From Verrucomicrobiales bacterium (GTDB lineage Bacteria; Verrucomicrobiota; Verrucomicrobiia; Verrucomicrobiales; DEV007): a stretch of 64,000 bases of DNA. Positions 405 through 45,254 of this stretch are shown one piece after another. The notes under the pieces were generated by a model. The model ran no database searches and was not told the origin of the DNA. It saw only the letters and a program-made list of their open reading frames with translations. How positions within the stretch are numbered: position 1 is the first letter of the stretch; each line of letters begins with the position of its first letter. Made by a program: the position numbers and the translations under genes. The DNA is taken from contig JARGOD010000001.1 in assembly GCA_029210205.1 (NCBI GenBank), positions 62,001 through 126,000 of the forward strand, in the 5' to 3' direction.

Positions 405-486
405 GCCGGTGTGGCGGAATTGGTAGACGCGCGCGATTCAAAATCGCGTTCCCTCGGGAGTGCGGGTTCGATTCCCGCCGCCGGTA
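405..486 (+). tRNA. trnL-CAA: tRNA-Leu (anticodon CAA)
   Basis: An 82-nt cloverleaf with a long variable arm (class II). The acceptor stem GCCGGTG pairs with CGCCGGT (G-U at 1:72), with discriminator A486. The D-arm has the typical GGCGGAATTGGTAGACGC of leucine tRNAs. The anticodon stem CGCGA/TCGCG encloses loop TTCAAAA, giving anticodon CAA (decodes UUG). The variable arm is CCC/GGG-paired, and the T-arm GCGGG-TTCGATT-CCCGC is canonical. CCA is not encoded. The 3' end lies 12 nt from the end of the converging ribulokinase gene. Confidence 0.95.
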
Positions 487-498
487 TTTCCAACAGCT

Positions 499-2181
499 TC
501 AGGAACGTTGCTGCTGTCGAATATCGATCAAATCCTTCATGATGTGATCCAGTTGACCAGTCCATTCGGCGGTCCCAAAAGCATCGTGAAGAGTCTTGTA
601 GATCTCATAGAGTCTTTCATACACGACGACGTTTGCAGGGATCGGATGATATTCCACCTCACGCATGCGGCAGCATTTCTGCTGCACTTCAGAAATCGTA
701 AAGCTCCCCTCTGCAGTCGCTCCGAAGATAGCTGCTCCAAGTGCACAAGTCTGATCGCTTGCAGCGACCTTAAGCGGACGCTTCAGGATATCAGCGTAGA
801 TTTGCATCAGCGTCGCGTTCTTGACGGCAAGTCCTCCCGTGTTCACGACTTCGTTGATTGAAATACCGTATTCCTCCATCCGGTTGATAATTGTCAGCGC
901 GCCAAAGGCCGTTGCTTCGATGAGGGAACGATAAATTTCGTGAGCCTCGGTGTGAAGGGTTTGTCCAAGGATCATCCCCGTGAGCCGAACATCAGTTAGG
1001 ATCGTACGATTGCCGTTGTTCCAATCCAGAGCCATCAATCCAGTCGAGCCCGGTTTCGATCCCTCGAGCCGCTTTTCCATTTCGATAAACTTTTCGTCCT
1101 GGCTTGCGCCATAGGAATCTGGAACGAGATGATTCACGAACCAAAGGAAGATATCCCCCACTGCCGATTGGCCTGCTTCGACTCCGTAGTGCCCCGGAAG
1201 GACAGATCCATCAACAACACCGCAAACTCCGGGAACGTCGGCAAGATCGCGATCTGCGGGCAGCACGGTGATGTCGCAAGTACTGGTTCCCAGTATCTTA
1301 ACTAAAGTTCCGGCCTTCACTCCCGAACCAACTGCCCCCATGTGCGCATCAAAAGCCCCCACGGCCACGGTGATTCCTTCACTGAGGCCAAGTTTGCCAG
1401 CCCACTCCGCAGTCAGGGTGCCGGCAGAGATATCTGACGAGAATGCCTCGTCGTAGAGTCGGTCTCGCAGATCAGCGAGCGCGGGATCGAGCGTGCTGAG
1501 AAACTCTTTGTCCGGCAGCCCCCCCCAGGAGGCTGCATACATCGCCTTGTGGCCGGCTGCGCAGACACTCCGTTTCGCTGAGGAAGGCGATTCATTTCCC
1601 GTGAGAACGGCGGGAAGCCAATCACAGTGTTCAATCCAGGAATGGGCCGCGGCGAACACTTCAGGAGCTGCATTCTTGCAGCGAAGAATCTTGCTCCACC
1701 ACCATTCACTTGAGTAGGTCCCTCCGCATTTAGCTAAGTATTCGGGGCGCATCTCAGAAGCCAATGCCGTAATTTTGGCGGCCTCTTCATGAGCCGTGTG
1801 GTCTTTCCAAAGCCAAACATGTGCATCGAGATTCTCAGAAAATTCCGGAGTGAGCGCGAGAGGCGTCCCCTTTTCGTTCACTGGAATCGGAGTACTACCA
1901 GTCGTATCAACGCCAATCCCAATCACATCAGCAGCACTGAAAGCAGTCCGCTTCGCCGAAGCCTGTTCGAGTGCGCCTCGTATGATCGTGACCATTCCAT
2001 CGAGATAATCCTGAGGGTTCTGTCGAGCCACATTCGGATCCGCTGGATCGGTCAAAATCCCCAATTTCCCCGATGGGTAAGGAAAAACAACTGACCCAAG
2101 CTCTTCTCCATTATCGAGATCGACAAGAAGTGAGCGGCAGGAATTTGTCCCGTAATCTAATCCAATTGCATAGCGACTCAT
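499..2181 (-). CDS. araB: Ribulokinase (FGGY carbohydrate kinase)
   Basis: 560 residues, the usual length for ribulokinases. ATP-dependent phosphorylation of L-ribulose (and related ketopentoses) to the 5-phosphate in pentose catabolism; cytosolic. The N-terminal phosphate-binding signature GLDYGTNS is at residues 7-14. It is followed by the DPN-ARQNP-DYLDG segment typical of the AraB branch, and the second FGGY signature (GGLAVKN) is at about 449-455. The start at 2181 was chosen because homologous sequence begins with MSRYAIGLDYG; the 12 extra upstream codons are not family-like. No other arabinose genes lie beside it, so the physiological substrate is inferred from family only. Confidence 0.85.
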   Translation of the reverse strand: MSRYAIGLDYGTNSCRSLLVDLDNGEELGSVVFPYPSGKLGILTDPADPNVARQNPQDYLDGMVTIIRGALEQASAKRTAFSAADVIGIGVDTTGSTPIPVNEKGTPLALTPEFSENLDAHVWLWKDHTAHEEAAKITALASEMRPEYLAKCGGTYSSEWWWSKILRCKNAAPEVFAAAHSWIEHCDWLPAVLTGNESPSSAKRSVCAAGHKAMYAASWGGLPDKEFLSTLDPALADLRDRLYDEAFSSDISAGTLTAEWAGKLGLSEGITVAVGAFDAHMGAVGSGVKAGTLVKILGTSTCDITVLPADRDLADVPGVCGVVDGSVLPGHYGVEAGQSAVGDIFLWFVNHLVPDSYGASQDEKFIEMEKRLEGSKPGSTGLMALDWNNGNRTILTDVRLTGMILGQTLHTEAHEIYRSLIEATAFGALTIINRMEEYGISINEVVNTGGLAVKNATLMQIYADILKRPLKVAASDQTCALGAAIFGATAEGSFTISEVQQKCCRMREVEYHPIPANVVVYERLYEIYKTLHDAFGTAEWTGQLDHIMKDLIDIRQQQRS

Positions 2182-9108: not shown

Positions 9109-9480
9109 ATGGAATCAGAAGTATCCCTCTATGATCGAATCGGCGGGGCCGAGACAATTTCAAGCCTCCTCGATAGTTTTTACGCTAAGGTTCTCGCTGA
9201 CAGCGAACTGGCACACTATTTCAAAAATTCTCCGATGGATAAGCTCCTTAAGATGCAGAAGGAGTTTTTTTCCGCGGCAACCGGAGGCCCACTTACCTAC
9301 AGTGGAAAACCTTTGCGTGACGTGCATCGTCACATGGCGATCAGCAAGCGTGAGTTCGCAAGATTCACCGAACACTTGATTGAGACCCTCAAGGAAATTG
9401 GTGTGGAAGAGCAAGCTTCCTACGAAATCATCAGCCATGTGAATCTCTACGCAGACGAGATCACCAACGATGTTTATTAA
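9109..9480 (+). CDS. glbN: Group 1 truncated haemoglobin
   Basis: 123 residues, the standard size of trHb1 (2-on-2 globin). It binds haem and O2 or NO in the cytosol; family roles include NO dioxygenation and redox protection. The hallmarks are LYDRIGGAETIS at the N-terminus, the helix-B FY pair (Tyr B10) near residue 23, the TGGPLTYSGKPLRDVH motif with the proximal histidine (F8) in RDVH, and VNLYADEI at the end. The start at 9109 (ATG) gives the canonical N-terminus; an upstream in-frame ATG at 9028 overlaps the DUF1080 gene. An NnrS-like protein at 25 kb is another possible NO-related gene but is not linked. Confidence 0.9.
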   Translation: MESEVSLYDRIGGAETISSLLDSFYAKVLADSELAHYFKNSPMDKLLKMQKEFFSAATGGPLTYSGKPLRDVHRHMAISKREFARFTEHLIETLKEIGVEEQASYEIISHVNLYADEITNDVY

Positions 9481-9491
9481 GCGCCCGGGAG

Positions 9492-10919
9492 CTAAACCAT
9501 AATCGCATCCAGATTCTCGTGCTTCCGTTCGGCAGGTCCGAGTTTCTCTTTCGCGCCCATGCCCGAGAGCATTGTATTGTAGAGATCTACTCCTTCCGTG
9601 TTCGCGTCAATAATCTGACCAGTTTTGAATCGTCCGTTCGCCCCGGTGATGGCGTGGAATACTCCGGAGAGTTCGCGTTTCACATCATTGTGACGGCCGT
9701 CGCCGGATTCGGTCGATATCGTGATCATTGTATTCTCAAGAATACTTCGACCATTAACTTCGCGGCAGTCTTCGCCTTCGTGCAATCGATTCAGGAAATA
9801 GGCGACCTCCCGCATCTTCATGTGAGCGTGGGCACGAAGCTGCTCGTTCTCCTTCTTCTCGTTAAATTTGTGCCACCACTCATGACTGCACCCTTTCGAA
9901 CCTGAGGCGTTGAGGTGGCGACTGTCATCGAATCGATGAATGAGGCGGCCGTCATAGTGATAATCTCCCGTCAGCCTGATCCTCTCGCCGGCGGCGAGGA
10001 AAGTCAGGGAACCAAATCGAGCGCGGTCCATCTGGATCGAAAGGGCGTAAAGATCGGCCATAATGCGCCATGCTTCTGTCAGTTCCTCCAGCGTGATGTC
10101 GATCCCTTCACCTCCGGGGTCGGCTGAGCCACCGTGCTTCAGCTTTGAAGGGGGTGGCAACGTCGGAGCGTTCGGGTCGTCGACTTTCACAGCGAAAGAG
10201 CGCTGCTCGTATTCGCGGATGCGATCAAGGTGATTCTTAAAACGCTCTTTCGAGGCAGCTCCGAGCGGTGAATTCGCCCCTGTGTAGAAATGATATTGCT
10301 CCATAACCGAGTCGAGGACGCTTCGCTTGATGCGTTCCTCGCGGTCATCGCCGTCACCGGATAGCTCTACTCGCCCAAAAACTCGTTCGAACAGATCTCG
10401 TGGGCGTTCCTGGATCGGCGCCGCGACAGTCCCGTCCGGATGATAACTGTGAACGTAGCGCCCGACCCGACTGCGCCGGAAAAAAGTACCGCTAACCAGG
10501 GTGGGCACCATCCCGTTTGGCATGCCATTCGGATAATGCGCCCGCTTCACAAGCTGATCGATCGAGGCGCCGCCCGCTCTCGCTTCGCCATCCGGCGGAG
10601 TCGCGGTGAAGGCTCCGGAAGCGCCATCGAAATGAGCGTTCATGCCGGAGCGGTCGCAGCGGATCTGATTCACTTTGCGGAGAATTAGCAATTGATCCTT
10701 CAACGGAGAAAGTGGCTCTAGGACATCCGTAAAGCTATCCGGCTGGACTGGATCTGGAATGCCCAAACCGAAAAACACATTGAACGCACGAGTCGGAATC
10801 GGCGGGGCTTTGGCCGCGTATAGCGTGGAAGGAAGCATTTCCTCCATGAGGGGCATTCCAACGGCGACACCGCCGAGTCCGCGTAGGAGGGTTCTTCTCG
10901 AAAGAGGTTGGGACTTCAT
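9492..10919 (-). CDS. DUF1552 Tat-exported protein
   Basis: 475 residues. The N-terminus has a twin-arginine signal (SRRTLLRGLGG, residues 7-17) and then a long DUF1552 domain. DUF1552 proteins are secreted, distantly alkaline-phosphatase/sulfatase-like (DUF1501-related) and almost always occur beside a DUF1592 cytochrome-type protein in Planctomycetes and Verrucomicrobia. Their biochemical role is not established. It lies 8 nt downstream of such a DUF1592 gene on the same strand, so the two form an operon. The gene converges on glbN, with 11 nt between the two ends. Confidence 0.85.
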   Translation of the reverse strand: MKSQPLSRRTLLRGLGGVAVGMPLMEEMLPSTLYAAKAPPIPTRAFNVFFGLGIPDPVQPDSFTDVLEPLSPLKDQLLILRKVNQIRCDRSGMNAHFDGASGAFTATPPDGEARAGGASIDQLVKRAHYPNGMPNGMVPTLVSGTFFRRSRVGRYVHSYHPDGTVAAPIQERPRDLFERVFGRVELSGDGDDREERIKRSVLDSVMEQYHFYTGANSPLGAASKERFKNHLDRIREYEQRSFAVKVDDPNAPTLPPPSKLKHGGSADPGGEGIDITLEELTEAWRIMADLYALSIQMDRARFGSLTFLAAGERIRLTGDYHYDGRLIHRFDDSRHLNASGSKGCSHEWWHKFNEKKENEQLRAHAHMKMREVAYFLNRLHEGEDCREVNGRSILENTMITISTESGDGRHNDVKRELSGVFHAITGANGRFKTGQIIDANTEGVDLYNTMLSGMGAKEKLGPAERKHENLDAIMV

Positions 10920-35843: not shown

Positions 35844-36980
35844 ATGACGGAATCTACGAAAAATCTCTCGGCATCGTGTCTGGTATCAAGTCCATTTGAT
35901 CAAGAATTGATTCAACAAGCCGCTCATGCCTGCCTAAATAAGCTCGGCAGCGATCCCGACCTTGTCGTTGCCTTTGTCACGTCTGACTACAAACCTCATC
36001 TGAAGGCATTGACTGAATCGCTCCAGATCGATGGTCATGCCTCTACGATTATCGGCGGCAGCGCCTGTGGATTGGCGGGAGTAAGCCGCGAGCAGGAGCA
36101 CATCAGCGGAATTTCCCTGCTTTTCCTTTGCATGCCAGAGACAGACATCAAAATCGGCGAAGATATCGTTTCGGGCGCGATTCCCGATGCAGCGCTCTTG
36201 CTCAGCAACCCTCTCGAAACCACTTTTGATTCCCTGCTTGAAAAATGGGACGACAAATTTCCGGGCTGTCCTCTCGTCGGAGGAAATATCACAGGAGGAC
36301 CGGATGAGGAAGCTCTCTTCTTGTTCAATGAGTGCGGCGAGGTCATTTCAGGAAGTCTTCTCGCGCACTTCACCGGCGGGGTCAAAGTTGAGTCACTCGT
36401 CGCTCCGGGATGTCGGCCGATCGGGAACCCTATGGTCGTCACTGAAGCAGAGGGCGATGAGGTCCTCTCACTCGGACGCCGGGAACCTTTCGATGTTCTC
36501 GAGGAAACGTTCTCGGCCCTTGGTGAAGATCTCCAGATCGAGGCTGAGGGAAACATCTTCGCCGGGGTGGTCATCAATGAGCAAACGGACGAGTTCGAAA
36601 GTGGCGATTTCAGAATTCACCAAATTGTCAGTGCGAGGCTTGAGGATGGCCGCCTCAAGCTAGGTTCTCCGGTCAGGGCCGGTCAAACGATGCAGTTCCA
36701 GCTTCGCGATTCGCTCGCTGCCGAGATGCTGCTACGATCAGAGTGTGATCGAATTTTTGAGGCTTCAGGAAAGCCGTTTGCTGCCCTTCTCTTTATGGGG
36801 ATGGGCCGCGGCAAGAATCTTTTCGGTGTGGAAGACCGCAATGTGAGAACTTTTGAGGAAACATTCGGGAAGGTACCTCTGACAGGAATTCATTCGTTTG
36901 GTGAGGTGGGTTCTGCTAGTTCCATGACCGAGCGCCACGATCATTCCATCTGCGGGGCACTTTTTTATTCAAAGGATTGA
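35844..36980 (+). CDS. FIST domain protein
   Basis: 378 residues, no signal peptide or membrane segment. An N-terminal FIST_N domain (about 30-215) shows GGSACGLAGVSREQE and FPGCPLVGGNITGG, and a C-terminal FIST_C (about 225-370) shows ALLFMGMGRGKNLFG and FGEVGS. FIST domains are cytosolic sensory modules thought to bind small ligands such as amino acids. Here the protein has no attached output domain. It converges with a GAF-subtilase operon, 6 nt between ends. A 17-codon ORF (35794-35847) overlaps its start by ATGA. Confidence 0.85.
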   Translation: MTESTKNLSASCLVSSPFDQELIQQAAHACLNKLGSDPDLVVAFVTSDYKPHLKALTESLQIDGHASTIIGGSACGLAGVSREQEHISGISLLFLCMPETDIKIGEDIVSGAIPDAALLLSNPLETTFDSLLEKWDDKFPGCPLVGGNITGGPDEEALFLFNECGEVISGSLLAHFTGGVKVESLVAPGCRPIGNPMVVTEAEGDEVLSLGRREPFDVLEETFSALGEDLQIEAEGNIFAGVVINEQTDEFESGDFRIHQIVSARLEDGRLKLGSPVRAGQTMQFQLRDSLAAEMLLRSECDRIFEASGKPFAALLFMGMGRGKNLFGVEDRNVRTFEETFGKVPLTGIHSFGEVGSASSMTERHDHSICGALFYSKD

Positions 36981-36986
36981 GCTGGC

Positions 36987-37742
36987 TCAATTCTCACGCA
37001 AGCTGGCCAACGCCACCTTCAACTGAAACGCCGTCAAATCAGGGAAGTGCTGTCGGAGTTTCGCTGCGATCCCCGTGATCTGCGGACAGGCAAAACTTGT
37101 TCCCGTGAACTGCTGCCATCCACCAGCCGGGGTAGGAGCGTCGACGTAGACTCCACTGGCTTCCACCTCAGTGACCCGATCAGAGAAGAAGCGGAAATTC
37201 AGTGGATCTTCGAAGTAATCCATGTCCACACCCACGACCGAAGCAAGTCCTGCGGGATAGCCGACTTTATTCCGTTTGTTGTCCTTGGCGGCAACCCAGA
37301 GCATTCCCTGGTAGTAGGCTTTGTCGGCGAGACGGGCTAACTGCTCGTAACTGGACTCAGTCCCGAGGCTGAGATTCAAAATGTCCCACTGCTGCTCAAC
37401 CGCGAATTCCAAAGCGGCGAGCAGCTTTTGTGATGTTGCGCTATGACTTGCCCCAATGACACGAACACTGTGCAGTTCCGCTTCGGGGGCGTGTTGGTGA
37501 ATAATGTAGGCACACGCTGTCCCGTGATCGATAACATCCTCCCCTTTCGCCAGTGAAACGATTTCCGGTTTACCGCGCCTGTACTCGACGACTTCGTAGT
37601 TACCCACCACCGCTCCATTCAACTCTGGCAAGTCAGATGCCACGCCGGAATCAAGAATCCCCACTTTGACGCCTTTTCCAGTCCCGCTGGCAAGACATTC
37701 ACGGAGGCGCTCCTGATCAACCACCCGGTCAAATGTCTTCAT
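36987..37742 (-). CDS. Cytosolic mini-subtilase (S8 family peptidase)
   Basis: 251 residues, without signal peptide, propeptide or C-terminal domain, much smaller than most subtilases. Catalytic triad: Asp31 (ILDSGV), His73 (DHGTACAY), Ser216 (GTSFACPQ). The oxyanion-hole region, AAGN in most relatives, reads AAKDN here, so the usual Asn is shifted or replaced. The start at 37742 follows a GAGGAAGAGGAAG ribosome-binding stretch and overlaps the GAF gene by 14 nt; a start at 37766 is also open. Tight coupling with GAF suggests signal-controlled proteolysis, or leader-peptide cleavage for the RiPP locus at 40-45 kb. Both are inference. Confidence 0.85.
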   Translation of the reverse strand: MKTFDRVVDQERLRECLASGTGKGVKVGILDSGVASDLPELNGAVVGNYEVVEYRRGKPEIVSLAKGEDVIDHGTACAYIIHQHAPEAELHSVRVIGASHSATSQKLLAALEFAVEQQWDILNLSLGTESSYEQLARLADKAYYQGMLWVAAKDNKRNKVGYPAGLASVVGVDMDYFEDPLNFRFFSDRVTEVEASGVYVDAPTPAGGWQQFTGTSFACPQITGIAAKLRQHFPDLTAFQLKVALASLREN

Positions 37743-38463
37743 GTCTATCTTCCTCTTCCTCTGCAAACTCGCCTAGCAAATCAGCCATCCTCGAAAGCAT
37801 TTCACGTTCCTTTTCGGGTAATGAGAGGGACTTTTCTGCGATCAAAGCCGGGATACGAAATTTGTGAGCGACCTCGCTGGCACGCGCGAGCCCCCCCATT
37901 TCCTCGAGTCCGAATTCACTCACATGCTCGGCAATTTCCAGCTCAGCTACCGAGGTGCTGAACTCGATCTTGCGATAGAGTTTCATCGCCGTTGCATAGA
38001 TTTCACCGAAGCCTTGCGCCGCTTTCAAGTCCTGAATTGAAAACGGTGTCTCCGAGGCTTCCCCGCAGCGATTCACGAATGTTGCGACCCCGTAGACGCG
38101 ATCGTCATCAATGATCGGAACGGCGAGGAGAAACTGCGTCTCAATTTGCGCGACTTCGTCCACCTTAGAGACACCCGGACTTTCCGGATGAACCTTTGCC
38201 ATGGCCTGACGTGAACTGAATACATAACCACTCACCGAACGGGAAACCGAAACCGTGATGTCAGACCCCTCAAGCGCGGGGTTCATAGACACGAGAAACC
38301 GGAGCTCGGTCTGATCATCTGAAGGAATCAAAATTGACCCTTCCGAGGCCGAAATCGCCTCACAAGTATCTTTCACCAGTTGACGCAACATTTCAGCCGC
38401 ATCGAGAAGAATCCCGTCGCCATGCTTATGGATGCGCTTCAACGCCGTCGCGAAATCGGACAT
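37729..38463 (-). CDS. GAF domain protein
   Basis: 244 residues from the ATG at 38463 (an ATG at 38547 would add 28 residues of unlikely sequence). After an N-terminal helix, a GAF domain spans about residues 15-160: SASEGSILIPSD, VSRSVSGYVFSSRQ, FLLAVPIIDDDRVYGVATFVNR, LKAAQGFGEIYATAM. The C-terminal ~75 residues are helical and highly acidic at the end. GAF domains bind small ligands such as cyclic nucleotides or haem. It has no HATPase, GGDEF or DNA-binding output; its only coupled partner is the mini-subtilase downstream. Confidence 0.8.
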   Translation of the reverse strand: MSDFATALKRIHKHGDGILLDAAEMLRQLVKDTCEAISASEGSILIPSDDQTELRFLVSMNPALEGSDITVSVSRSVSGYVFSSRQAMAKVHPESPGVSKVDEVAQIETQFLLAVPIIDDDRVYGVATFVNRCGEASETPFSIQDLKAAQGFGEIYATAMKLYRKIEFSTSVAELEIAEHVSEFGLEEMGGLARASEVAHKFRIPALIAEKSLSLPEKEREMLSRMADLLGEFAEEEEDRHEDI

Positions 38464-38571
38464 GAGAGGAATAGAACACAAGCGACAGAAAAGAGCACGT
38501 CGATTCGTCTTCTTTTCTTGAACCTCTGGATAACTACCCATTAGCATAGAAATCGATTCATCCCGTATTTA

Positions 38572-40005
38572 ATGATCACTTGTAGAAACGCAGCTCTTTT
38601 CATTTTCTCCACGTTCTGTCTCATCTTCCCATCGGCAGCGAGGAGTAACGAAGTCGCTGAGTTAAATGACTTGCTCAATAACTACGCTGAAAAACAGAAA
38701 GAGATTTCTCTGCCTTTCGTTGAATCACGAAACGCTCTTCGCGCAAAGTATGAGGCAATGCTCAAGCCGCTTCTCGCAAATGCAACCCGTCAGGGCAATC
38801 TGAGTCAGGCTCTCGTGGTAAAAAAGGAACTTGAAGGGCTAAGTTTGGGAAGACTGAGTGAACTCGCGGAGGATGTCCCGGAAGACCTTTCGCGCCTGCG
38901 CAACATCTACGATTCAGAACTCGAGAAAATCGACACGAAGGAAAAAGAGGAACTTGGCAAGCTGATCCCACTCCTAATAGAGTCGCTTGATAATTTGGAG
39001 ATCATGCTCACCAAAAATGCCCGCCTTAATGATGCTGTAGTAGTCAACTCCGTAAAGGTCAGGTTTCAAAAAGAGTCTACCAATTTCGTCGCCTCACAGA
39101 GCACATCTCCCAGTGAAACGATCAGTCGAAGCGAACTTGAACGGCGACGAGAAGAAGGAGGAAAGCTTCGCATCGAAGGAGCATTTTTACCGGGAATGCC
39201 GGCCATGATTCCGGAATTGGATAAGTTGCCTTCTGACTTTATCTCGGTCTTTGCTTTCCGCAGCAGTTGGGTCGCACTTCGGGCGAACGGCAAGTCGTTA
39301 GTAATTGGACTAAACCGTGACAAAACAGTCGTCGAATCAACTGACGACATGAATATTCGTCTCATCGGTAACGGCTACGACGCCTTTATCTACACGAAGG
39401 ATAAAATGCTCCACCGTCTCGTTAACTGGGAACTCAATCACCTCAATGCAACCATAAGCAACCCCATCGCCTTAGCGGGAGGTCATGCTACCGGCCTTCT
39501 GCTTAACTCAAGAGGTGATCCAGAGGCCCGCGGAGGAAGTACGCTTGCCGTTCCACCTGAGGACTTTCGGAGAAACATCAAGGCGCTCGCTTCTACAAAG
39601 CACACCTTTCTAACTCTGAGTGAGGACGGAGTCGCCCGCATCTGGAACATGCGGGAAGGACGCGAAATGAAATCCCCTGAGCTTGAAGCGAGAAAGATCG
39701 AACGTATCGAAGGGGGACAAAGCCACTATCTCATCGAAGACATCGAGGGTCATGTCATTGCCATCGACGTCTCGGGTTCATCAGCTGTCTCGGGATTTGT
39801 TCCAAACTTTGCTCATTCTCCCCACCAGATCAGAGCCGGAGGCAACATGAGTGCGGTTCAAATGCTGGACGGTACGTGGAAAGCCTGGGGCGAAGACAAT
39901 GCCTTGTCCGATACAGTCGACAGAGCCGGAAAGGCCAATGACCTCGACCTCTATTCAGGGGAATCTTCTGAGTATGTCATCTGGATAGAGAATCCAACAG
40001 ACTAG
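38572..40005 (+). CDS. Secreted coiled-coil plus RCC1/propeller-like protein
   Basis: 477 residues. Signal peptide (about 1-24, ending AARS). Residues about 25-160 form charged helical coiled-coil (NEVAELNDLLNNYAEKQKEI, LVVKKELEGLSLGRLSEL), a pattern seen at the N-terminus of Verrucomicrobia/Planctomycetes surface proteins. Residues about 195-475 look like a beta-propeller with RCC1-type blades (ALRANGKSLVIGL, DGVARIWNMREG, QMLDGTWKAWGEDN). Function unknown. It lies between the GAF-subtilase operon (divergent) and the DUF692 gene, with which it converges stop to stop with no spacer. Confidence 0.7.
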   Translation: MITCRNAALFIFSTFCLIFPSAARSNEVAELNDLLNNYAEKQKEISLPFVESRNALRAKYEAMLKPLLANATRQGNLSQALVVKKELEGLSLGRLSELAEDVPEDLSRLRNIYDSELEKIDTKEKEELGKLIPLLIESLDNLEIMLTKNARLNDAVVVNSVKVRFQKESTNFVASQSTSPSETISRSELERRREEGGKLRIEGAFLPGMPAMIPELDKLPSDFISVFAFRSSWVALRANGKSLVIGLNRDKTVVESTDDMNIRLIGNGYDAFIYTKDKMLHRLVNWELNHLNATISNPIALAGGHATGLLLNSRGDPEARGGSTLAVPPEDFRRNIKALASTKHTFLTLSEDGVARIWNMREGREMKSPELEARKIERIEGGQSHYLIEDIEGHVIAIDVSGSSAVSGFVPNFAHSPHQIRAGGNMSAVQMLDGTWKAWGEDNALSDTVDRAGKANDLDLYSGESSEYVIWIENPTD

Positions 40006-41211
40006 CTAAAAACCACCCGGCCCGAGCTGATTGGCCCATGCCGCCCATTCGCGCTGCTCATATTCTTTCGCGACCTGTTCGTCCTCTTTTTCAAAGTAGT
40101 CCCACGCTTCCTCGAACTCATGGACGAGGCGGCCGTCGCACTCAACGAGCTTTTGAAACCACTCAGGATCGGTGACTCCGTATTGCTTGACTGCTTCGGG
40201 GGCGTTGGCGAGAAATGCATCGCGAAAAGGCGGATTCGAGATGCGTCCCATGAGCGCCCTTTGAAAGCTTTTCATCCCCGCGAACTCGGGTGCATCAGGA
40301 TCCGGAGCAATATCCACGTCAGCAAAGGGAGCACTCTCGAGCGTTGGAGCCTCGGAAGGTCGATGGCTATAAAAGATCTCACGCGCCTTGCGAATATCAG
40401 TCATGACTGAATCAAATGGCTTGAGCTTGCTGTCCCGCTCAAGAATCACATTTCGGAGATTTGAGGAACGCTTCACTGCTTCGTTAAAGAGTGGCCAGAC
40501 TTCATCCATCACAGGAGCAGAGTGGCTGTCCTCCCATCGTCCGTCAGGTAACTGATGCCCACCGGCGAGATGCATCTGGGACACGCGATCCATCGGGAGT
40601 CGGTCAATAAACTCGATTGGGTCGTAGTTGTGATTCCTCGAATTGTTGAAGACATTCGTCACATCGAGCAACAGGGTGCAATCAGTCTCTTCGCAAATCC
40701 GACAGAGAAACTCAGCTTCACTCAATGAGCCTTTCGGAACGGGAAAGGAGTAGGTCACATTTTCGAGGGCAAACGGACGCCCAACCGCGCGGCGAGCGGC
40801 ATAGTAGTTTCGCTTAACCCACTGCACCGCAACTTCTTCAAACGGGATCGCAAGGAACATCGTGAGATCATTTCCATCGACGCGATGGTAGGCGAGATGC
40901 TCACTGAAAATGTTGAGACCATTCTCTTCCATGAAGCGCCTCGTGCTATTGAGGTAGACATCGTCGAGTTCACCGACCGTACCGATCGAAAGGCTGAGGC
41001 CATGAGCGACGCATGGAAAAGTCGCAAGTGCATCCTTAAGAAGGCGTTCGTTAGGGTCACTGAAGGTGCGGCGCTCACGAATGATATAGTCTTCCGTTGA
41101 AATTTCGAGGAGATCGATCTCGCTGCGGTGTTGCACTGCTTCGCGGTGAACATTGAAGCGATAAGCCAGGCCGACGCCGTAAGGCTGCTCGTGATGGTTC
41201 GGGTTGCTCAT
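40006..41211 (-). CDS. DUF692 (MNIO) peptide-modifying enzyme with C-terminal extension
   Basis: 401 residues. Residues 1-285 are a DUF692 TIM-barrel of the multinuclear non-haem iron oxidative (MNIO) family, with candidate metal ligands His70, Glu104/His105, Glu150/Asn151, Asp183/Asn186, His214, Asp228/His230 and Glu259. Family members oxidise Cys or Asp residues in RiPP precursors. Residues about 305-401 are an extra helical domain containing MGRISNPPFRDAFLANAPEA and YGVTDPEWFQKL, resembling LigA/nitrile-hydratase-like leader or partner modules, possibly replacing the separate partner protein MNIOs usually need. It is downstream of the precursor gene on the same strand. Confidence 0.85.
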   Translation of the reverse strand: MSNPNHHEQPYGVGLAYRFNVHREAVQHRSEIDLLEISTEDYIIRERRTFSDPNERLLKDALATFPCVAHGLSLSIGTVGELDDVYLNSTRRFMEENGLNIFSEHLAYHRVDGNDLTMFLAIPFEEVAVQWVKRNYYAARRAVGRPFALENVTYSFPVPKGSLSEAEFLCRICEETDCTLLLDVTNVFNNSRNHNYDPIEFIDRLPMDRVSQMHLAGGHQLPDGRWEDSHSAPVMDEVWPLFNEAVKRSSNLRNVILERDSKLKPFDSVMTDIRKAREIFYSHRPSEAPTLESAPFADVDIAPDPDAPEFAGMKSFQRALMGRISNPPFRDAFLANAPEAVKQYGVTDPEWFQKLVECDGRLVHEFEEAWDYFEKEDEQVAKEYEQREWAAWANQLGPGGF

Positions 41212-41375: not shown

Positions 41376-41735
41376 TCAGTGGTGGCAGTGGTTGCGCCAG
41401 CAGTTGCGACGCCAGCAGTTGTTGAAGTAATTGCGACGCCAGCACCAGTTGTGTGCTTCAACGTCTCCTTCAGCTTCGCTTTCAGGACCTTCCTCGTAGC
41501 CACCTTCGTAGCCGCCCATAGGCGCACCACCAGTGTGGATCTGAATCACGACCTGACCGTTCGTGCCTGGAACAGGCATTCCCTGGCTTGGGCCGGGGCC
41601 GACTGGTCCTTCGGTGGGGCCAACGCCCGCATCACCGAGTTTTTCTTTGATCTGGTCCGCCGGGATGAGCGCGCTCTCGAGCTGCTCATCTGCGACTTCA
41701 TAGAACTTTCCGTCACTACTTCTAAGTATAGCCAT
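41376..41735 (-). CDS. Putative RiPP precursor peptide
   Basis: 119 residues. Leader: MAILRSSDGKFYEVADEQLE plus PADQIKEKL (1-33), then a Gly/Pro-rich linker (38-60), a QVVIQIH strand (61-67), a Gly/Tyr/Glu-rich stretch (69-93) and a tail (95-119) dense in Trp, Cys, Asn, Arg and His. The tail contains W97, W99, W108, W113, C98, C107, C112, C117 and repeats of the form W-R-R-N or W-R-N (99-102, 108-111, 113-115). An AAGGA ribosome-binding site precedes the ATG. It sits between the radical SAM maturase and the DUF692 gene, which supports precursor identity. No export signal is present. Confidence 0.8.
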   Translation of the reverse strand: MAILRSSDGKFYEVADEQLESALIPADQIKEKLGDAGVGPTEGPVGPGPSQGMPVPGTNGQVVIQIHTGGAPMGGYEGGYEEGPESEAEGDVEAHNWCWRRNYFNNCWRRNCWRNHCHH

Positions 41736-41824: not shown

Positions 41825-43111
41825 TTAGACGCCTTCCGGCTTCGGTAATTCAATAAGCGGTGATTCGGTCTCATTGATGCCGAGATCATTCTCAAGGTCT
41901 TCGAGCACGATCTTCATCGGCATCTGCACGGTGGAGACGCACTGGTGAGTTTCAGTCGAGTCGAAGGAGCCGTTCTCGTAGTATTTGTTCGAGGGAGATG
42001 CACCGCCGCAGTATTGGTAAAATTCACACTCCTGGGAGCACTTCTTATTTCCCGCTTCGATGTCGGCAAGAACGTGCTGAAAAGATTCGTTCACGGTCGC
42101 GTCATAAAGCGACCCGCCGATGAGACTTCCGAAGCTGAACGATCCATATTTTTCCGTCGGCTGACCGAGCAACTCGGGAGAGAACATCGAGAAGTTGCCA
42201 AAGCAATCGACATTGATCATGCCAAAAGGGTCAGCCTCCTGATTGTAGTAGTCGCCGTCGGGCTTCGAACACCAGCCGGGCTCCATGATGTTCCGCTCGG
42301 CGTTCTGAAACTCTCTCACATTGAGAGGAAATCCGTCGGCTTTGTTGCGGAGATAGAACTGCTTGAGAAACGAATAGATGCGATCCCGACCACCGGATTT
42401 ATCGAGCGAGGAGGTGGCATTGGCACCCTCGACTTCCTCTATGTTGAATCCGATTCCGGTAATGCCGTGCTCCCGGTAAAAGTCATACATTTCATCAGGA
42501 TGATCGACTGAGACATCAGAGATCACGGAGACAACTCCGAAGGGGACGTTGTTCTTCTTGAGGCACTCAAGACCGCGCATCGCCTTATCGAAGGTGCCCT
42601 CACCTTTTCGCGTCTTGCGGTGGTGGTCGTGGATGTGCTGAGGGCCGTCGATGCTGATACCGACTTCCACTTCGTGCTCGTTGAGGAACTCGCACCACTT
42701 GTCATTCACAAGGGTGCCGTTGGTTTGCACGGAGTGGATCACGAATTCTTTTGCCTTCGGGTAACGGTTGATGATTTCAAAGGCCTCCTCATACCACTTG
42801 ATTGGAACAGCAAGAGGCTCACCGGCATGCCAGAGGAGGCTGAAGGGATTCATGACAAGCCCGCTTTCCCAGACCTTGTCCATGACCTTTTCGAGCACTT
42901 TGAAATCCATACGGCGGGTGTCGGTCCGATTCGGCAAATAGCAGTAGTCGCAGTTGATGTTGCAGAACGGGCTCGGCTGAATCACGAGTAACCCCATCGA
43001 AAGGCGCTCGGAGTTTTGCGGCGTCAACTTCGGGATCGTTCCGGTCACGTGACCTTCGGAAACATTCCGTGAAGGAGTGACAGTTGGAGTGGCTTCAAGG
43101 GTGGTTGTCAT
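41825..43111 (-). CDS. Radical SAM/SPASM peptide maturase (GrrM-like, cyclophane-type)
   Basis: 428 residues. Radical SAM cluster ligands are C50, C54 and C57 (CNINCDYC). WHAGEPL, VQTNGTLVND and GISIDGP-IHDHHRKTRKGEGTFDKAMRG are the core features shared with the GrrM/OscB cyclophane-forming maturases. A C-terminal SPASM domain has cysteines in GWCSKPD, NVDCFGNF, KCSQECEFYQYCGG and HQC for two auxiliary Fe-S clusters. The first ~40 residues are a Thr/Pro-rich extension. It is expected to install radical cross-links on aromatic residues of the precursor, whose gene begins 89 nt downstream. It resembles sulfatase-maturing enzymes in fold, but context argues for a RiPP role. Confidence 0.88.
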   Translation of the reverse strand: MTTTLEATPTVTPSRNVSEGHVTGTIPKLTPQNSERLSMGLLVIQPSPFCNINCDYCYLPNRTDTRRMDFKVLEKVMDKVWESGLVMNPFSLLWHAGEPLAVPIKWYEEAFEIINRYPKAKEFVIHSVQTNGTLVNDKWCEFLNEHEVEVGISIDGPQHIHDHHRKTRKGEGTFDKAMRGLECLKKNNVPFGVVSVISDVSVDHPDEMYDFYREHGITGIGFNIEEVEGANATSSLDKSGGRDRIYSFLKQFYLRNKADGFPLNVREFQNAERNIMEPGWCSKPDGDYYNQEADPFGMINVDCFGNFSMFSPELLGQPTEKYGSFSFGSLIGGSLYDATVNESFQHVLADIEAGNKKCSQECEFYQYCGGASPSNKYYENGSFDSTETHQCVSTVQMPMKIVLEDLENDLGINETESPLIELPKPEGV

Positions 43112-43478: not shown

Positions 43479-45254
43479 ATGTCGAACGAACCGCCCGCAT
43501 CCCCTTCCCAGAACGAAGGACCACCCATGGATGGCCCTGATGGTCCACCGCCCGGCTTCGACCTCGATCCAAAGGAGATGCGAAAGCACTGCTTCCGGCT
43601 CATTCGAGAAGTGATCGGGAGCCTTGGGTGGAAGTATAAGCTGTGGATCCCGGCGGCAATGCTCCTCTCTGCCGTTCACCTGCTCCCGCCCCGCTTCCTT
43701 CTCTTTTTCACGGAGCGAACCCAGGCCCTTTCCGAAACCGGGGCTGATGACTTTATCAAAATGCTTCTCATTTTCGGGGTCGCGGTCGGCGTTTGCCAAT
43801 GGCTCGCGCTCGTCTTTGACAGCATCCTCAGCGAATGGCTTCGCCTCACCGTGAGCATCCGAATGAAGCAAGACGCGGTCGACAGCCTCAGCCGCACTCG
43901 TATCGACTCTTTGGACTCTGCTCAACGTGGGGATTGGATGACACGCCTCTCCAGCGATATTTATAATGCTGAAGAATTCCTCACCGCTTCCCTCCCCGGC
44001 CAGATCACCAACTTCACGATGATGGTCGGTTCGGCGGCGCTCTTCTTCTATTACTCAGGCCCGATCGCTTTCATCCCACTCGTCGCGGCGCTTTTTCTTG
44101 GTTGGTTCAATATCGCGGTGCAACGAAAAATGGGACCCGTCCTCTCTCGCGCTCGCATGCTGGAAGGTGGCGTCTTTCAATCCATGATTGAAACCTTTGA
44201 AGGACTGCGCACGATTCGCAGTTACGGAGCCGAAGGCTTCACCCGACGTAAACTGACCGGGCAGCTGAACGAAGTTTACGATGTCGGGATGCGGATCACT
44301 AGATCCATGGCCTTGCTCATTGGGGTGACCGAGTTTGTCGGTCAACTCATCGTCACGGGTCTCCTGACCCTTGTTGCTTTTCAGGTCATCGGGGAAACGC
44401 TCACCGCGGAGAATGCGCTCGTTTACCCTTTTTATCTCACGCTTTTTCTCGGAGCAGCGAAAGGGCTCGTGGGATCAGCCTACGACTGGAATCGTTTCTT
44501 CATCGAAGGCGGGCGCCTTGCCTCCCTGCTCTATGATGAAGACAATAAGGAGGCAGATCGCGAGAAGCTCTTCGGAACCTTCGAGTCGGATATCAAAGCA
44601 GTGAAGCGCTTCTCCGCTGAGGGGATCTCAATTGCGTACGGTGATAATCCGCCCGTGATTCGGAATCAGGATCTGGAGCTGAGCCGTGGTGAGATTGTCG
44701 CCCTCATGGGCGAATCCGGCTGTGGAAAATCGACCCTCACGGAATCCTTTGCAGGACTCCGTCAAGCGAATGCCGGTTCATTTGTTGCCGCGATGGATGG
44801 TGGAGAAAATCGGACCTTCGAACAGGCGCCTCCCTTCCTCGGTGCCTTTGTCGAGCAACAACCCTACCTCTTTGTTGGAAGCATTCGGGATAACATCACC
44901 CTCGGCCACGGAGATGTCAGCGACGACGATGTTCGCTCGGCTCTTGCGGAAGTCGGACTCGCCGCAACGGTCGAACAGCGTGGTGGACTGGATCACGTCC
45001 TCACGGATCGTGGCCGAAACATGAGCGTTGGTCAGCAATACCGCCTTGCTCTCTGCCGCGCTCTTGTGTGCGGGCGACCTTTCCTCCTCATGGATGAACC
45101 CTTTGCCGCGCTCGATGAGGAGTCGGTCGAGCTCGTCGTCAAATCAATGAAGGAGGAACGAACACGCGGGACCGGAATTCTACTGATCACTCACCTTCTC
45201 CCTGAAGGGCTCGAAGCCGACCGAATTGTCGACCTCGTGGCGCACCGGGATTGA
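43479..45254 (+). CDS. ABC exporter (fused permease-ATPase)
   Basis: 591 residues. After a cytosolic Pro/Gly-rich N-terminus (1-45), a six-helix transmembrane domain (about 55-345) precedes the ATPase domain (about 370-590). Walker A GESGCGKST is near 411, Walker B FLLMDEP near 535, and H-loop ITHL. The ABC signature is degenerate (MSVGQQYR instead of LSGGQxQR). Type IV exporters of this form move peptides or lipids outward. No C39 peptidase domain is present. It is divergent from the radical SAM operon across 152 nt, so it is the likely exporter of the modified peptide, which is inference. Confidence 0.82.
   Translation: MSNEPPASPSQNEGPPMDGPDGPPPGFDLDPKEMRKHCFRLIREVIGSLGWKYKLWIPAAMLLSAVHLLPPRFLLFFTERTQALSETGADDFIKMLLIFGVAVGVCQWLALVFDSILSEWLRLTVSIRMKQDAVDSLSRTRIDSLDSAQRGDWMTRLSSDIYNAEEFLTASLPGQITNFTMMVGSAALFFYYSGPIAFIPLVAALFLGWFNIAVQRKMGPVLSRARMLEGGVFQSMIETFEGLRTIRSYGAEGFTRRKLTGQLNEVYDVGMRITRSMALLIGVTEFVGQLIVTGLLTLVAFQVIGETLTAENALVYPFYLTLFLGAAKGLVGSAYDWNRFFIEGGRLASLLYDEDNKEADREKLFGTFESDIKAVKRFSAEGISIAYGDNPPVIRNQDLELSRGEIVALMGESGCGKSTLTESFAGLRQANAGSFVAAMDGGENRTFEQAPPFLGAFVEQQPYLFVGSIRDNITLGHGDVSDDDVRSALAEVGLAATVEQRGGLDHVLTDRGRNMSVGQQYRLALCRALVCGRPFLLMDEPFAALDEESVELVVKSMKEERTRGTGILLITHLLPEGLEADRIVDLVAHRD

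Follow-up and report, generated by a model that had tools for sequence, protein, structure and literature searches.

A small gene cassette of uncultured Verrucomicrobia appears to direct the production of a secreted peptide rich in Trp, Arg and Cys, made by means of a ring-forming radical SAM enzyme (rSAM) and an iron oxidase of the MNIO (DUF692) family. The cassette lies in a 64,000-nucleotide stretch of a Verrucomicrobiales genome (hereafter, the window), where the gene for a short precursor is accompanied by those for the two enzymes, a subtilisin-like protease, a GAF-domain protein and an ABC transporter (Table 1). On our best reading, a triceptide-type rSAM and an MNIO are joined here in one cassette with Qhp-like processing, which would represent an apparently unreported hybrid RiPP. 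The literature searched on MNIO/DUF692 together with cyclophane/SPASM enzymes, and on RiPPs of Verrucomicrobia, does not describe this pairing; subscription papers were largely outside the scope of this survey, and novelty is not proven. The gene families, their linkage, the conserved residues and the purifying selection documented below are read directly from the sequences.

Table 1 Features of the cassette in the window, with the evidence for each
Feature	Position	Strand	Evidence
S8 subtilisin-like protease, DSG/HGT/GTS motifs	36987..37766	minus	PF00082 1.2e-25
GAF-domain protein adjoining the protease	37729..38547	minus	PF13185/PF01590
MNIO (DUF692) oxidase, 401 aa	40006..41211	minus	PF05114, 235.2 bits; AlphaFold2 model
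Helical C-terminal domain of MNIO, residues about 300-396	40024..40314	minus	pLDDT 91.1; weak fold matches
MNIO barrel, residues about 8-287	40351-41190	minus	fold matches 8hi7_B, 3bww
Predicted RiPP precursor, 119 aa	41376..41735	minus	ORF translation; family search negative; dN/dS 0.11-0.25 by region
Precursor core, residues 94-119	41379..41456	minus	units C98-W99-R-R-N102, F104-x-N106, W108-x-R-N111, C112-W113-R-N115
Precursor conserved leader, residues 1-37 (MAILRSSDGKFYEVADEQLESALIPADQIKEKLGDAG)	41625..41735	minus	A1 alignment of 22 sequences
Radical SAM/SPASM cyclophane maturase, GrrM/OscB subfamily	41825..43111	minus	TIGR04261, 439.6 bits (cut-off 310)
Divergent ABC transporter (TMD + NBD)	43479..45254	plus	PF00664 + PF00005

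Linkage and distribution of the cassette

The rSAM gene is located upstream and the MNIO gene downstream of the precursor gene, in agreement with the original prediction, which had read the precursor tail as a candidate substrate of a triceptide-forming enzyme and of an MNIO: the rSAM exceeds the GrrM/OscB cut-off and the oxidase matches PF05114. This rSAM-precursor-MNIO trio is linked in 18 related genomes, namely at 16 of the loci L045-L061 and at L076 and L077; the exception, L057, ends after the rSAM gene. The gene order ABC / rSAM-precursor-MNIO recurs in related genomes, and the S8 and GAF genes then follow in many, not all, of them. The source records of the relatives are metagenome-assembled genomes (MAGs) of uncultured Verrucomicrobiales/Akkermansiaceae. 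Within the order, a search with a precursor profile gave matches in 21 of 386 genomes, which come from a single family (f1) and are distributed over 5 of 50 genera; across the phylum, only one of 387 genomes matched, the window's own, so that the precursor family looks narrow. Occurrence within the genus is patchy, the cassette being found in 14 of 33 genomes, including its own. Among 240 genomes sampled across the phylum, no GrrM above the cut-off was detected except that of the window.

A conserved precursor with a Trp-, Arg- and Cys-rich core

The precursor has AHNWCWRRNYFNNCWRRNCWRNHCHH as its C-terminus, and its residues 95-119 translate as HNWCWRRNYFNNCWRRNCWRNHCHH; the span originally assigned to these residues, 41376-41451, is 2 nt short, since the codon of residue 95 occupies 41453-41451. 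The protein matches no Pfam, NCBIfam or PHROGs family and has no signal peptide, its start (MAILRSSDGKFYEVADEQL) being devoid of a hydrophobic stretch. Leader positions M1, A2, I3, R5, D8, G9, Y12, D16 and L19 are invariant in the 22 sequences of alignment A1. Judged by the median pairwise dN/dS over 120 pairs (leader 0.11, linker 0.25, core 0.17), the precursor is under purifying selection. Just before the core units, V92 and H95 are conserved in a V-x-[AP]-H motif, a candidate mark of leader removal.

The repeat units described in the original prediction (N96-W-C-W-R-R-N102, N106-C-W-R-R-N111 and N111-C-W-R-N115) and the Cys residues at positions 98, 107, 112 and 117 are confirmed by the ORF translation. 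The prediction had also named homologues without conserved aromatic-x-x or Cys positions as the observation that would speak against it; in an alignment of 17 homologous cores, conservation of both was found. H95, C98, W99, R100, N102, F104, N106, W108, R110, N111, C112, R114 and N115 are invariant in all 17 cores, position 97 is W or Y, position 113 is W or F, and position 101 is R except for H in one core. Four aromatic units can be distinguished: W99-R-R-N102, F104-x-N106, W108-x-R-N111 and W/F113-R-N115. The second and fourth are aromatic-x-Asn (i, i+2) motifs conserved in 17/17 cores; in the W99 and W108 units, Arg occupies i+2 and Asn follows at i+3. Accordingly, some of the cross-link pairs proposed earlier stay candidates and others do not: W113/N115 (W or F, with N conserved) and the invariant W108/R110 do so, and W99/R101 nearly so (R101 is H once), whereas Y103/N105 is rejected because both positions vary (Y, H, C or S at 103; N, C, S or H at 105), the conserved pair being F104-x-N106. 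Likewise, of the four Cys put forward as MNIO targets, Cys98 and Cys112 are invariant, whereas Cys107 and Cys117 are variable (present in 8/17 and 12/17 cores, respectively); the number of Cys per core ranges from 2 to 5 across the precursor family. The C-terminal ends in relatives (RW, R, SY, YPRW, GYGGYGY) show that the His-rich end is not conserved. A His-based copper site, suggested earlier as an alternative role of this end, is unsupported as a family function, and a conserved metal site at the His-rich C-terminus is ruled out by the same alignment.

Composition alone is a weak argument for the tail motif. In shuffles of the tail's own residues, a repeated NCWR arose in 0.03% and three C-aromatic pairs in 3%, and the aromatic-x-N count, which is not unusual, was reached in 11%. 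The strong argument is of an evolutionary kind, coming from sequence conservation across the 17 cores together with the dN/dS values. More distant members of the family, L060 (CWRNCWRRNCWRNCWHNCW), L073 (WRNWRNWRNWRN / CGWRNWRNWRNWRNCGWQNC) and L074 (WQNCWQNWHNWHNWNNWNN), use plain W-x-N, which makes it likely that W-x-N is the ancestral unit and W-R-R-N a variant.

The precursor gene itself differs at individual loci. At L053, a tandem pair (9416-9763 and 9912-10262) encodes slightly different cores with C-terminal GYGG tails that lack the last Cys. At L045, a run of N near 9665-9804 falls inside the precursor core of the public contig, so that automated gene calling could overlook this precursor or cut it short; the split match stems from this assembly gap, and breakage of the gene by a real insertion is ruled out.

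The radical SAM enzyme and its probable cross-links

The TIGR04261 match, which exceeds the curated cut-off, covers residues 44-408 of the rSAM and the model from end to end (1-363/363). The CX3CX2C motif (C50, C54, C57) and the auxiliary-cluster Cys residues (C358, C362, C368, C391) are invariant in the 13 sequences of alignment A4. OscB reportedly joins Trp C7 or Phe C4 to the C-beta of Asn or Asp at i+2, and Arg is known from XncB as a cross-link partner at i+2 (PMC11002830). F104-x-N106 and W/F113-R-N115 fit the published OscB rule, but the two WRRN units cannot be matched to it directly, since described OscB substrates have Asn/Asp at i+2, where Arg is found here. Given these motifs, OscB-type Trp/Phe-to-Asn cyclophanes on the precursor are probable. 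The system resembles the GrrM/OscB triceptides (OscB, TIGR04261/IPR026357) in an rSAM scoring over the curated cut-off and in aromatic-x-Asn core repeats, but differs from them in that the precursor has no signal peptide, a different leader and a Cys-rich core with W-R-R-N units, and in that the cassette also holds an MNIO, an S8 protease and an ABC exporter. GrrA-type precursors of GrrM-like loci from other lineages have a Sec-type start and Cys-free W-x-N repeats; the present precursor, with four core Cys, has neither.

An MNIO with a fused helical domain

The match of the oxidase to PF05114 compares with a gathering score of 25 bits. H70, H105, E150, D183, H214, D228, H230 and E258 are invariant in the 20 sequences of alignment A2, and we take these residues to be the metal ligands of the family. 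The AlphaFold2 model (pLDDT 86.6) matches TglH (8hi7_B; Z 28.4, rmsd 2.7 over 269), HS_1138 (3bww; Z 27.0) and MbnB (7dz9_A; Z 26.4), the matched part being residues 8-286. The protein falls under every curated NCBIfam equivalog cut-off (HvfB 202/360, BufB 188/310, ApyH 89/400, ChrH 58/600 and MbnB 33/325 bits), HvfB and BufB being the nearest curated families. Its C-terminal region, which matches no Pfam family, is modelled as five helices (residues 300-396). All fold matches of this domain are weak (Os1348 6lk7, Z 6.8; LigAB 1bou, Z 5.0; borosin precursor SonA, Z 4.6) and include RiPP precursor/leader domains (SonA, DprE2); no DUF2063-type match was obtained by fold, the best being to Os1348/LigA-type folds, although the domain may still be DUF2063-like. 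Because MNIOs usually act with a partner protein (PMC12452194) and none is seen here as a separate gene, we propose the fused domain as a candidate built-in partner or substrate-binding domain.

With other MNIO-modified RiPPs (bufferins/HvfB, methanobactin, pearlins/TglH, aminopyruvatides/ApyH, biphenomycin-like/PbsC), the system shares a PF05114 barrel with conserved ligand-type residues and a small Cys-containing precursor gene directly before the MNIO. It differs in the fused helical domain, no separate DUF2063-type partner being seen, and in the enzyme paired with the MNIO, which is a SPASM cyclophane maturase and not a B12-rSAM or P450. Bufferin systems have a Sec signal peptide and a DUF2063 partner, neither of which was found here, where the genes following the MNIO encode the GAF and S8 proteins. 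In most MNIO substrates described so far, Cys is the modified residue (PMC12452194), and the core alignment makes MNIO oxidation of Cys98 and Cys112 plausible.

Association of MNIO with core cysteines

Ten loci of other lineages (L063-L072), retrieved with the same rSAM query and encoding rSAM relatives of 36-49% identity, served as a natural control. No MNIO was found at these loci by tblastn or with a profile built from 20 family MNIOs. Precursors were recognised by eye beside nine of the ten (that of L068 was not found), and all nine have W-x-N or F-x-N repeats and a Cys-free core; the single Cys counted in L069 and in L072 falls within the N-terminal section of the ORF as called. Those with a clear start have, by eye, a hydrophobic Sec-like N-terminus. 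The rSAMs of loci with both MNIO and core Cys form one group (support 88/100). This distribution supports a link between the presence of MNIO and core Cys; it reflects one event, perhaps two with a sister cassette, and might therefore be a coincidence.

Two sister cassettes, L073 in genome G038 and L074 in genome G044, encode the same leader type, W-x-N cores with 2-3 Cys, and GAF, S8 and ABC genes together with a different rSAM. This SPASM-type enzyme (L073:1706-2911, minus strand; L074:3748-4956, plus strand) passes no curated NCBIfam cut-off (best PapB, 118-125 bits vs 340), which looks like rSAM replacement within one RiPP family. In G038, contig C101 carries an MNIO (38% identity) after the ABC gene; the start of C101 and the end of C312 share an overlap of 41 nt within that ABC gene, which joins the two halves of the cassette (L073/L081). 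In G044, with two core Cys, no MNIO was seen in a genome that is 83% complete and on a contig that ends in the ABC gene. Both loci also have an ORF after the precursor gene (L074:5540-5746, plus strand; L073 within 422-988, minus strand) with a precursor-like leader (MAIVNTLDGRYYDLDPEFLESCRIPDEAL... and GLDGRVFEVTEETLEKCRIPDEQV..., respectively) and no Trp/Cys core, perhaps encoding a leader-like accessory protein.

Protease, GAF-domain protein and transporter

The S8 protease, likely the leader protease, scores 115.3 bits against QhpE (NF049966), below the cut-off of 165. The cassettes of 12 related genomes also include its gene, and in one split cassette it lies next to the MNIO gene; at several loci for which downstream DNA is available, no S8 gene was found nearby. 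The GAF gene is next to the protease gene in many cassettes, and its product perhaps has a sensory role. The ABC gene, in which no C39 peptidase domain was found, is kept beside the rSAM gene, in divergent orientation, in nearly all loci with upstream DNA, and likely encodes the exporter. In qhp, modification by a cytoplasmic rSAM is combined with a subtilisin-like leader protease and ABC export (PMC7876137). The present cassette resembles this system of QHNDH gamma-subunit maturation (QhpD rSAM, QhpE subtilisin, QhpF ABC exporter) in all three respects, but its protease is under the QhpE cut-off, its rSAM is of another family, an MNIO is present, and no dehydrogenase subunits are encoded among its genes.

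Two further genes of the window adjoin these. Between the MNIO and GAF genes, on the opposite strand, lies a gene for 477 aa (38572-40005, plus strand) that has no more than a weak RCC1-like match. At L046 the MNIO and GAF genes are adjacent, so that this gene may have been inserted into the cassette. A FIST-domain sensory protein gene (35844-36980, plus strand) is convergent to that of the S8 protease and occupies the same place in several relatives.

Proposed pathway and alternatives

We consider it fairly probable that the cassette encodes a hybrid RiPP pathway with GrrM/OscB-type cyclophanes, oxidation by an MNIO with a fused partner domain, leader removal by the S8 protease and ABC export; every chemical step, the step order, the cleavage site and the biological role of the product are what we infer. 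The precursor tail would form the core of a ribosomal peptide of cytoplasmic origin, with leader residues 1-37 being recognised and guiding modification. The rSAM would close three-residue cyclophanes on F104-x-N106 and W113-R-N115, linking the ring of the aromatic residue to the C-beta of Asn. Each W-x-R-N unit (W99, W108) would probably gain one ring as well, with either the Arg at i+2 or the Asn at i+3 as partner. The MNIO, its helical domain standing in for a separate partner protein, would oxidise core residues, most likely Cys98 and Cys112, each directly before Trp (W or F at position 113). The S8 protease would then remove the leader near the V-x-A-H motif and the divergent ABC transporter export the product; these two steps are proposed because QhpE and QhpF do so for QhpC (PMC7876137). 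A reading that we regard as rather unlikely has the two enzymes working at interleaved sites of one repeat: each C-W-x-(x)-N unit would receive a Trp ring from the rSAM, which in W-R-R-N would span four residues from Trp to Asn, and the Cys ahead of the Trp would be converted by the MNIO to a sulfur heterocycle or a related group. The product, part cyclophane and part heterocycle, would define a new RiPP class with a swappable rSAM (GrrM/OscB vs the uncurated enzyme of L073/L074), a constant leader and exporter, and an MNIO in at least one sister genome.

Part of the doubt concerns the target of the MNIO. It is conceivable, if somewhat doubtful, that the rSAM forms the cyclophanes while the MNIO acts on a non-Cys residue (Phe104, another aromatic, with PbsC-like ortho-hydroxylation, or Asn), the Cys forming disulfides after export. 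MNIOs that hydroxylate Phe and others that cleave Asn are on record (PMC12257519; PMC11002830), and F104 and all four Asn are as invariant as Cys98 and Cys112; however, Cys is modified in most described MNIO substrates (PMC12452194), HvfB and BufB are the nearest curated families, and the MNIO-free GrrM-like loci keep Trp and Asn but not Cys. The extent of the system is less in doubt: that it consists of the rSAM and MNIO only, with the S8, ABC and GAF genes as mere neighbours, would accord with the loci where no S8 gene is nearby, but is very unlikely, given that the ABC gene diverges from the rSAM gene at almost every locus and that S8, GAF and ABC genes recur with a different rSAM in L073/L074.

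As to the role of the mature peptide, binding of a metal (copper) through modified Cys and His ligands, as in bufferins or methanobactin, is brought to mind by MNIO relatives that function in copper chelation (PMC12452194) and by the Cys-rich core with invariant His95, Cys98 and Cys112. We consider it unlikely, as neither a Sec signal peptide nor a separate DUF2063 partner of the bufferin kind was found, the cassette (rSAM, MNIO, GAF, S8, ABC) includes no DoxX or sigma-factor gene such as bufferin clusters have, and the His-rich end varies among relatives. Also somewhat doubtful is a role as an exported cationic antimicrobial, rich in Trp and Arg and stiffened by cyclophanes: it would suit the Arg/Trp-rich core, the ABC exporter and protease in the cassette, and the patchy occurrence within the genus, whereas no immunity gene was recognised and the core is strongly conserved among species, unlike antimicrobials, which often diversify.

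MNIOs and cyclophane-forming SPASM rSAMs represent two active fields of RiPP enzymology, and in the hybrid pathway favoured here both would act on one short repeat. The precursor family offers a ready-made test set, with relatives that have or lack an MNIO, cores with 2 to 5 Cys, and W-x-N or W-R-R-N units, while the two different rSAM enzymes that would act on cores behind one leader type provide a further natural comparison.
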